Source: Pseudomonadota bacterium
GTDB lineage: Bacteria > Desulfobacterota > Desulfovibrionia > Desulfovibrionales > Desulfovibrionaceae
DNA: 57,738 nt
Direction: 5' to 3'
Assembly (NCBI GenBank): GCA_018816865.1
Contig: JAHIUW010000008.1
Coordinates: 1 to 57,738, forward strand
Part shown: in pieces, positions 39,686 to 43,408 of the stretch
Layout: each line of letters begins with the position of its first letter
How positions within the stretch are numbered: the stretch's first letter is position 1
Position numbers and translations under genes: made by a program
The notes under the pieces: generated by a model
What the model saw: only the letters and a program-made list of their open reading frames with translations
Databases searched by the model: none
Told to the model about the DNA's origin: nothing

Positions 39686-41242
39686 TCATGAAACGCGCTG
39701 ATTCCCAAAATGAAAATGCATGCGGCGCACAAACTCCTGCCCGAAGGCGGGGTCGCCCGTCAAGTCGATGTTACTGGTCCGCCCCGGCATGGCCTCGGCC
39801 ATTTCCCGGGCCTCGGGGACGGTCAGCATCAAGCGCGCTCCGGCCAGAGAGGTATTGCCCACGGTGCGCACGCGCGCACCCAGCCCGGGCGGCAAAAAGC
39901 CAAGGGTCTCCAAATCCAACGGGGCGACATGAGCCCCCAGGGCACCGGCCAGACAAAGGCAACTCAGGGCTCCGGGGAGCAGGCCAGAGCGATCCAGCAG
40001 CGCTCCCACGGCCAGATCAAAGGCCGCCTTGACCTTGAGCACCTCTTCCACATCCGACGCGGTCAGGAACAATCCCCCAGGAAGATTCAAGCATGGCTCA
40101 CCAGCAATGGTTCCGAAGTCCACAGCCATCCTGGCCGCCAAGGGGGTCGTTCCCGGAGCGAAACCACCCCCATCATCCAGCAGCCCCTGCTCTTTCAGAA
40201 TTGCCAGCAGGGACAGATAGCCTGCCCCGGTGATCCCGGCCTCGCGCGAGGGTGCTCCGCCGCCGATGCAGCGAGCCTCCAGACCTGAGGGTGAAAGACG
40301 ATAGGAAGACACGGCCCCGTTCCCGGCCACATTGCCGCAAGCCAAGCCCGCCCCCTCCAGGGCCGGCCCCAGGGGGACGGAAGCCGAGAGGTACTCGGAA
40401 TCCGAAAGGGCCAAAAGAAATTCGCCGTTGGTCCCCATGTCCGAAAGCAGGAACGGAGTCTGCGGCGGCTCGGTCGCCATGAGCAGCGCGACCATTCCGG
40501 CACTGAGATCTCCGCCCACGAACGGGGCCAGTTGCGGTAGGACGTAGGTTTCGGGAAGGTTGTTGGCCAGAGTGAGCATGCGCCCGCCAGGCTCATCCAG
40601 TCGATACGGGGCCGAGGACAGGCCGTCCACCGAGACTCCGAGCAGGAGCAGGGTCATGGCCGGGTTCCCGGCCACGGCCAAACGCACGACCTGGCCAGGC
40701 AGTAAAGCAATGATCCCGCGCAGCAGATGCAGTACGGCGTGACGCAGGAGTTGTGCCCCCTGCGCAGTTGCCGCAAAAGCCAGCCGGGACATGACCTCGC
40801 TGCCGGCCCCCAGCTGAGGATTCAACGCCGCGCCCGAGGCCACGACAGTTCCTGATGCGTCCAGGGCCTCCCACTGTACGCTGGTCGTGCCCAGGTCCAC
40901 GGCCAACCGCAGTTCCCGAGTGGCCTGGACAGCGGCTACAGGGGCCTCCAACGCAAGCTCTGCGGGCAGGAAGACCCGGGTCCCCGCCAGGGCCATGTGA
41001 CGGCATCCCAGCCGCCAGCCCTGAGCCAACTCGGCCTCGGAAAGGACCCGCAACTCATCGGCCTGCGGGGTAGGCGCAGTGGAAAGAAATCGCATTCTGC
41101 AGCGCCCACAACGCCCAAGGCCCGAACACAAGGCCGTCGCCTGCCAATGTCCGGATAAAAAAGCGGTCTGGGCCAAGGTGCGACCGACATCGGCCGCAAA
41201 GTCCACGGTGTGACCAGCAGTATCGGTAATGGAAATCGTCAT
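39686..41242 (-). CDS. ferredoxin-ASKHA protein (RACo-like, DUF4445)
   Basis: The 518-residue fusion has an N-terminal 2Fe-2S ferredoxin domain with cluster Cys at C39, C45, C48 and C80 (CSGLGRCGRC...C). A C-terminal actin-like ATPase domain follows ('LAVDLGTTSVQW', residues 113-124; 'LSDMGTNGEFLLALS'; 'GNGAVSSYRLS'; 'LAGALGAHV'). This is the layout of RACo proteins, which use ATP to reduce and reactivate corrinoid proteins. No corrinoid methyltransferase gene is near. Instead it lies between selD (35 bases away) and lipB (28 bases away). An electron-delivery or reactivation role for another cofactor enzyme is open. Confidence 0.88.
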   Translation of the reverse strand: MTISITDTAGHTVDFAADVGRTLAQTAFLSGHWQATALCSGLGRCGRCRMRFLSTAPTPQADELRVLSEAELAQGWRLGCRHMALAGTRVFLPAELALEAPVAAVQATRELRLAVDLGTTSVQWEALDASGTVVASGAALNPQLGAGSEVMSRLAFAATAQGAQLLRHAVLHLLRGIIALLPGQVVRLAVAGNPAMTLLLLGVSVDGLSSAPYRLDEPGGRMLTLANNLPETYVLPQLAPFVGGDLSAGMVALLMATEPPQTPFLLSDMGTNGEFLLALSDSEYLSASVPLGPALEGAGLACGNVAGNGAVSSYRLSPSGLEARCIGGGAPSREAGITGAGYLSLLAILKEQGLLDDGGGFAPGTTPLAARMAVDFGTIAGEPCLNLPGGLFLTASDVEEVLKVKAAFDLAVGALLDRSGLLPGALSCLCLAGALGAHVAPLDLETLGFLPPGLGARVRTVGNTSLAGARLMLTVPEAREMAEAMPGRTSNIDLTGDPAFGQEFVRRMHFHFGNQRVS

Positions 41243-41277
41243 CGCTGATAACCGGTCCGCCTGGGGACCGCTCCTTG

Positions 41278-42327
41278 CTAACGGATCAACAGCCTGCCCT
41301 TGCCATCAGCGGCGGGCAGCACTCGGCCAATGCGCGCCGCGATATCGCCCGCGTCTTCGAGCATGCGGCAAGCCTCATCCAAATGCCGATCTGGAACGGC
41401 GAGCACCAGCCCCCCGGAAGTCTGGGCGTCGAACACGAGATCCACCCGCGTGCTGTTCAGTCCCGGGGCAAGGTCCACCCGGTTCTCGCAAAAATGCTTG
41501 TTGGCGTAACTGCCCGCCGGGACGAGGCCCACTGCGGCCAATTCCTCGGCCCGGGGCAGCAAGGGGACGGCGTCCAGCCAGAGTTCGACATTCAACTCCG
41601 AGGCACGGGCCATCTCCAGCAGATGCCCGCCCAAGCCGAACCCTGTCACGTCGGTGGCACCCTTGAGCCCAAAACGCCGAATGACTTCGGCACCGACCTT
41701 GTTCAGACGTGCGGCCACGGTGTAAAGCAGTTCTTCCAGTTCGTCCGCGCCGTCCCACTTGGCCTTGACCGCCGTGGCCAGCACTCCGGTGCCCAGAGGC
41801 TTGGTCAGCAGCAGCGTATCTCCGGGAACAAGGCCCGCGTTAGTGGCGTAGCCATCGGGGTCCACGACGCCGGACACGGCCAGCCCGAACTTGATCTCCT
41901 GGTCAACGACACTGTGCCCACCCGCAAGAACGGCCCCGGCCTCGCGGACCTTGTCATATCCGCCACGCAGGATTTCTTTCAGGATGTCCTCATCCATGTC
42001 CTTGATGGGGAAACAGACGATATTCATGGCAGCGTAGGGTTCGCCCCCCATGGCATAGACGTCGGACAGGGCGTTGGCCGCAGCGATTTGTCCAAAGCGG
42101 TATGGGTCGTTCACGATGGGCGTGAAAAAGTCCACCGTCTGCACCAGAGCCTTGCCCTGCGGGAAGATGAGAACGGCAGCGTCCTCGCCAACGGCTTCGC
42201 CGGCAAGGATGCGGGGATCAGTCTGCCTGGGCAGAACCGACAGTACTCTCTCCAGGTCCCCTGGAGCGATCTTGGCGGCTCAACCAGCGGCTTTGACGGT
42301 ATCGACAAGAACGATCTTCTCGGACAT
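41278..42327 (-). CDS. selD: selenide, water dikinase (selenophosphate synthase), itself a selenoprotein
   Basis: The 349-residue enzyme makes selenophosphate from selenide and ATP. The start at 42327 has AAGGAG 6 bases upstream. Codon 16 is TGA (42282-42280), in the context KAAG-U-AAKIAPGDL, exactly where SelD proteins carry catalytic Cys/Sec. Reading through it joins the N-terminus to the rest in frame ('RILAGEAVGEDAAVL...VQTVDFFTPIVNDPYRFGQIAAANALSDVYAMGG'). A SECIS-like hairpin follows 13 bases later. Standard gene callers will start it wrongly at 42144. It follows lysR by 63 bases on the same strand. Confidence 0.95.
42250..42266 (-). promoter_or_regulatory. SECIS-like hairpin in selD
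   Basis: In the mRNA CTCCAGG-GGA-CCTGGAG forms a perfect 7-bp stem with a G-containing 3-base loop, starting 14 bases after the UGA. Bacterial SECIS elements sit at this place with G in the loop, bound by SelB. Confidence 0.75.
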
Positions 42328-42390
42328 CGCGCGCTCCTTGGGGCTGAAGGTTAGTGGGAGGTTCGTCTGGGACGCCGAACACCGCCGGCG

Positions 42391-43287
42391 CTACGCGCCG
42401 AGTCGGCACTCCTGACGGATGAAATCAATGAAATACCGGGCCGCCGGGAACAGATGGCGGCGGGAATGATAGGCAAGATAAAAATCCCGCTGCATGTCCA
42501 GGCCCGTGACTTTGAGTTCCACCAACTCACCAGTCTTGAGTAATGGACCAGCGGCAAGGCGGGAAGTCACTGTCACGCCGATCCCGGCCCGTACGGTCTG
42601 CAAAGCAGCCTGGGTGCTTTCGACCTTGAGCGTGGCTTGTGGACGCGGTGCGCCCAGTGCATCCAGAGCCAGCTCGAAAGCCCGTCGGGTTCCGCTGCCC
42701 TCCTCGCGCATCACCCATGGCAGGGTTGCCAGGTCTGCGGGAGCCAGCGGCTGACTGAATTTCGCGGCCATGGTTGCCGTGCTGACGATGACCAGTTCAT
42801 CCATCAGCACATTCTCAAAAGTCAGGTCAGGATGCTCGGCCTGGGAGCCAACCATGGCCACCATGCCCTCGCCATTGATCAGGCGCTGAATGATCTTGCT
42901 GGAGTCAGCCACCTTGAGATCCATCCGCACCTCGGGATAACGGGCCGAAAAACGTGCCAGCAGCGAGGGCAGCACGTAATGGGCCGGAATCGTGCTGCCG
43001 CCGATGATCAGGTCGCCTGCCACGCGTTCCTGAAGCAGCTGGATCTCCGCCGTGGCGGCGGCCAGGGAGTTGAAGACGTCCAGTGCATAGCGATACAGGA
43101 CTTCAGCGGCCTGAGTCGGCAGAATGGTCCGACCCAAGCGGTCGAACAGGCGCACATCCAGTTCGGTTTCCAAAGCGGAAACGTGCGCGGAGATCGTGGG
43201 CTGTGAGAGATATAATTGCTCACCGGCCTTGGAAAAACTCCGCAGTTCATAAACCTTGGAAAATGCTTCCAGACGTCTGATGTCCAT
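42391..43287 (-). CDS. LysR-type regulator next to selD
   Basis: The 298-residue protein has an N-terminal winged HTH ('MDIRRLEAFSKVYELRSFSKAGEQLYLSQPTISAHVSALETELDVRLFDRLGRTILPT', 1-60) and a periplasmic-binding-like effector domain ('GDLIIGGSTIPAHYVLPSLLARF...'). LysR regulators associated with selenium metabolism are known next to selD in several anaerobes, and this fits. The true start is 43287 (AAGGA upstream); the frame continues upstream through the ribosomal terminator but is not coding. It may sense a sulfur, selenium or oxyanion compound and control the genes downstream or itself. Confidence 0.92.
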   Translation of the reverse strand: MDIRRLEAFSKVYELRSFSKAGEQLYLSQPTISAHVSALETELDVRLFDRLGRTILPTQAAEVLYRYALDVFNSLAAATAEIQLLQERVAGDLIIGGSTIPAHYVLPSLLARFSARYPEVRMDLKVADSSKIIQRLINGEGMVAMVGSQAEHPDLTFENVLMDELVIVSTATMAAKFSQPLAPADLATLPWVMREEGSGTRRAFELALDALGAPRPQATLKVESTQAALQTVRAGIGVTVTSRLAAGPLLKTGELVELKVTGLDMQRDFYLAYHSRRHLFPAARYFIDFIRQECRLGA

Positions 43288-43326
43288 AGCCCCATCCTTG
43301 CATGCGTTGTAACCAGAAAAGAGACC

Positions 43327-43357
43327 AAAAAAAAGCAGGCTGTTAGGCCTGCTTTTT
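43327..43357 (-). terminator. terminator of the ribosomal protein cluster
   Basis: On the minus strand GCAGGC/GCCTGC, extended by A-T pairs, is followed by T8. On the plus strand it ends in T5. It lies about 50 bases past the rplQ stop and isolates the cluster from lysR. Confidence 0.92.
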
Positions 43358-43408
43358 AGTATTATTCGAGTGGAAAAGCCATAGCTATTCCAAGGAATAC
43401 TCCTCGAG

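Follow-up and report, generated by a model that had tools for sequence, protein, structure and literature searches.

An in-frame TGA at the active-site codon of selD predicts a selenocysteine-containing selenophosphate synthetase in a member of the Desulfovibrionaceae

Background

Selenophosphate synthetase (SelD) has been counted among the selenoproteins of Desulfovibrio; a 2006 survey names it among the eight selenoproteins of Desulfovibrio vulgaris and the seven of D. desulfuricans (PMC1794560). In a second study, selenocysteine (Sec) is found in 19% of the SelD genes of 223 reference prokaryotes, always at the same position, and the remainder carry cysteine (PMC4561486). Because the first of these sources lists Desulfovibrio SelD and the second reports Sec-containing SelD, the Sec type of the enzyme is already known, and it is a common arrangement in this bacterial family. 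The gene described here belongs to the same enzyme family as the reported selenoproteins of D. vulgaris and D. desulfuricans, and no difference from them was found in a comparison with the listing in that survey (PMC1794560).

In this paper we examine the selD gene in a window of 57,738 nucleotides, the whole stretch of DNA that was analysed (contig JAHIUW010000008.1 of assembly GCA_018816865.1), in which a sequence-only reading had proposed a selenoprotein hidden by an in-frame UGA. We compare the gene with its relatives in the family, measure the constraint on the stem-loop that follows the UGA, and describe the Sec machinery encoded in the genome.

Methods

The genome is estimated to be 99.97% complete. 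SelD was sought in 199 genomes of the same family, and 176 of these gave a match at E <= 0.001. For the alignment of selD we took the 30 best loci (own gene included) and 18 picked lower down, including the four without an inner stop; two further loci, L069 and L070, duplicate L019 and L020 in their genes, and leaving them out reduced the original 50 to 48 aligned genes. Because the stretch that would form the stem also codes for protein, the stem was assessed against a protein-preserving control, in which 11 codons were swapped synonymously, 2000 times, using each gene's own codon pool. As a side check, ten near-complete family members with no, weak or partial SelD match in the family search were inspected for SelD and for the remaining Sec machinery.

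Results and discussion

The selD frame and its in-frame TGA

The features of the locus are collected in Table 1. A full-length SelD is obtained only if the TGA at codon 16 is read through. With this TGA read as one residue, the 349-residue product matches the SelD profile TIGR00476 at 351.3 bits (cut-off 125) over residues 9-314 in the profile search, and a second SelD profile, NF002098, at 303.6 bits against a cut-off of 299; the Pfam domains AIRS and AIRS_C are both present. A scan of named genomes returned three distant loci as relatives, with 54, 50 and 45% identity.

Table 1. Features of the selD locus (positions in the window; all on the minus strand).
Feature	Position	Strand	Basis or detail
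selD coding region, selenide, water dikinase; 349 codons with codon 16 TGA read as predicted Sec	41281..42327	-	profile match, alignment
selD start codon, ATG	42327-42325	-	
TGA, codon 16, predicted Sec codon at the active-site position	42280..42282	-	alignment
Stem-loop CUCCAGG-GGA-CCUGGAG of bacterial SECIS type, inside the selD coding region	42250..42266	-	
selD stop codon	41278-41280	-	
Shine-Dalgarno-like AAGGAG, 6-nt spacer before the selD ATG	42334..42339	-	
LysR-type regulator directly upstream of selD	42394..43287	-	NCBIfam NF040786 'selenium metabolism-associated LysR', 270.5 bits, cut-off 250
RACo-like protein directly downstream of selD; 2Fe-2S domain, RACo middle and C-terminal ASKHA domains	39689-41242	-	

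The product aligns to the solved SelD protein 3u0o, which we take to come from E. coli, across residues 6-348, so that the two are homologous over this length and share the active-site region; 3u0o has Cys where Sec is predicted here. Codon 16, in the context VKAAG-U-AAKIAPGDLE, falls opposite Cys 17 of chain 3u0o and opposite a Cys of 2yye, and the residues U16-A-A-K stand against C-G-C-K and C-A-A-K, respectively, with the Lys at +3 conserved. We assume that the aligned Cys is the catalytic one and that the Lys at +3 likewise has a catalytic role. The sequence-only reading had placed the UGA in the AAG-U-AAK active-site motif of SelD and had held that the sequence 5' of it continues the family, behind a ribosome-binding site; the position on the Cys/Sec column, the alignment from residue 6 and the AAGGAG before the ATG bear out all three statements.

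Exactly one TGA is present in 146 of the 150 SelD matches listed (own gene included), and none in the other four. The TGA lies at the same codon in 44 of the 48 aligned genes (that of the window plus 43 in other genomes), which had been chosen for having one inner TGA and not for its position, and which share ancestry and so are not 44 independent cases; the remaining four have Cys, encoded by TGC or TGT. A conserved in-frame UGA at a Sec/Cys position, one of the marks by which bacterial selenoproteins are recognised, is therefore found in selD.

The Cys-containing genes are L051-L054, from the relatives G008, G110, G182 and G179. SelB scores over the cut-off in G110, G182 and G179 and has no match over the cut-off in G008, which means that Cys-SelD occurs both with and without a recognised SelB.

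The stem-loop downstream of the TGA

Bacterial SECIS elements have a G among the first two bases of the loop. In selD a stem of seven pairs with the three-nucleotide loop GGA lies directly downstream of the UGA, the loop starting 20 nt after it. Counted from the TGA, the first 53 nt have a folding energy of -23.3 kcal/mol (z = -2.41); because 5 of 200 shuffled sequences fold equally well, the fold of the single sequence is only modestly unusual.

All five tested pairs, which were chosen after the fold had been viewed, can form in 38 of the 44 TGA genes; under the 2000 recodings the mean was 0.91 of 44 genes and no recoding exceeded 5. A final T is found in the fifth codon downstream of the TGA in 43/44 genes, against 561 of 3242 Ala, Pro and Ser codons elsewhere in those genes. 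The fifth pair is C-T in 4/44, the first pair is broken in one gene and the second in another. Outside the five-pair test, the sixth pair is G-C in 44/44, and the seventh is standard in 39/44 and non-standard in 5/44. Two-sided changes at the five tested pairs number 0 among the 44 genes, so the support for the stem is one of sequence constraint and not of covariation. With only four Cys genes for comparison, one forms all five pairs, and the mean is 3.25 pairs against 2.33 expected by recoding. The comparison indicates that the stem after the selD TGA is kept by synonymous codon choice, beyond what protein coding demands, and the 7-bp SECIS-like stem of the earlier reading has survived the protein-preserving control.

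An Rfam scan of positions 41000-43400 gave six matches, none of them at the gathering score, and the stem matched no Rfam family at that level. A search with RF00031, presumably the eukaryotic SECIS family, gave zero matches in this genome and zero also in all 14 control genomes.

Sec machinery and other genes with an in-frame TGA

The absence of selA, selB and selC had been named in advance as evidence against a selenoprotein; all three were found. The tRNA-Sec scores 76.3 bits (gathering score 47) and is called tRNA-SeC, anticodon tca, by ARAGORN. SelA (606.3 bits, cut-off 267.9) and SelB (391.9 bits, cut-off 242.25) have no inner stops, and their genes share a contig, on which 2.4 kb separate them. 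Another 11 tRNA-Sec and 10 SelB matches, all below the cut-off, are attributed to other tRNAs and to translation GTPases.

Two genes for the formate dehydrogenase alpha subunit (FdhA; L071 and L072) score over the cut-off, each with one in-frame TGA, which in both stands in the context ARI-U-HSATVAAL and is followed by a stem-loop. In the one FdhA that was compared with solved structures, the TGA residue falls opposite an X of 1h0h, and 11 of the 19 PDB sequences matching that FdhA are titled selenocysteine-containing. The FdhA match, with 1h0h and 6sdr, suggests kinship with Desulfovibrio-like sulfate reducers. The 50 bases from the TGA onward are identical between L071 and L072. One minus-strand frame containing a TGA at each FdhA locus was set aside as a chance frame.

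Interpretation and alternatives

We conclude that this SelD is very probably (about 0.97) a Sec-containing selenophosphate synthetase, with Sec inserted at codon 16 by way of SelB, tRNA-Sec and the stem-loop. The basis is a frame that is open through a single TGA, the conservation of that TGA, the constrained stem, and the presence of selA, selB and tRNA-Sec in the genome; on these grounds the earlier view of SelD as a selenoprotein stands.

If the TGA were a true stop, a shortened SelD would begin at the GTG of codon 62, the first ATG, GTG or TTG downstream of it. This is the longest selD frame under the standard code (ORF 41278-42144), but such a protein would be missing both its N-terminal part and the residue of the active site, even though the alignment to the solved SelD starts at residue 6. 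Compared with a same-genus relative, moreover, codons 1-15 show four synonymous and no amino-acid changes, and among codons 16-62 there are 15 differences, of which 12 are synonymous; the relative has GTT, which is no start codon, at codon 62, and no clear ribosome-binding site was seen upstream of the GTG. We regard a start at codon 62 as extremely improbable.

There is just as slight a chance that a TGC or TGT was misread as TGA in sequencing: Cys is indeed the alternative residue at codon 16 in the alignment, but this codon is TGA also in 43 genes of other genomes, and the stem is present. Nor do we give more credit to readthrough of the UGA as an amino acid other than Sec. Such a mechanism is proposed for insect SPS1 in one study (PMC4561486), but the genome considered here has tRNA-Sec, SelA and SelB, and the stem is constrained.

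Under the preferred reading, in which codon 16 encodes Sec, catalysis, the binding of SelB to the selD stem and the insertion of Sec itself would follow the known pathway. SelD would make selenophosphate from selenide and ATP, and SelA would use the selenophosphate to convert Ser-tRNA-Sec to Sec-tRNA-Sec. Attached to the stem-loop that directly follows codon 16, SelB would then deliver this tRNA to the UGA, and the outcome would be Sec in the active-site loop of SelD itself. The gene would thus give a clear example of an enzyme whose synthesis requires its own product.

A Sec-containing SelD matters chiefly for annotation, in that a plain gene caller loses 61 residues together with the active-site residue. 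The sequence-only reading had made this loss a general expectation of automatic annotation, which holds for a plain stop-to-stop caller but not as a rule, as pipelines vary. Selenoprotein genes are described as usually misannotated in one study (PMC4561486). According to another, DFAST detects selenocysteine exceptions, and its table for a single E. coli genome has three selenoproteins in INSDC and DFAST and one in RefSeq, with a dash entered under Prokka and MiGAP (PMC5860143).

Relatives without a recognised SelD

SelD scored over the cut-off of the family profile in 0 of the ten near-complete family members of the side check, and SelA did so in seven. Among these seven, tRNA-Sec and FdhA are each over the cut-off in five; four of the FdhA have one TGA, and the fifth is split over two contigs with its TGA in the other piece. 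In G014 the stretch cuts SelD short and the match comes from its tail, so assembly gaps account for at least this genome. Four near-complete genomes, G046, G010, G175 and G145, have SelA and tRNA-Sec over the cut-off and no SelD over the cut-off; SelB is additionally present in G046, and an FdhA with one TGA in each of the other three. G046 is assembled in 4 contigs, and its best SelD match looks like ThiL. In these four, either assembly gaps or stretches absent from the data are responsible, or selenocysteine is decoded without a recognisable SelD. The finding of a Sec-containing SelD in the window is not affected by these relatives.

Neighbouring genes

It is conceivable, though we think it unlikely, that the LysR-type regulator, the Sec-dependent SelD and the RACo-like protein form one selenium-responsive unit, in which the need of SelD for Sec would serve as a selenium sensor and the RACo-like protein would act in selenium metabolism or keep SelD reduced. 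A literature search for a LysR-type regulator of selenium or selenoproteins in Desulfovibrio found no paper. The RACo-like protein scores far below the AcsV cut-off. Within flanks that extend no further than about 1.5 kb, the 18 further loci have a LysR gene in two cases (in one of them truncated where the contig ends) and a RACo-like gene in none. Among the 30 best loci (own included), counted within the same flanks, a RACo-like gene lies downstream of selD in five, that is, in 4 of the 29 best relatives, and selD is immediately preceded by a LysR gene running in the same direction in 17, or 16 of the 29 best relatives. In the window itself, 63 bases separate the stop codon of the LysR gene from the ATG of selD, both genes running in the same direction.
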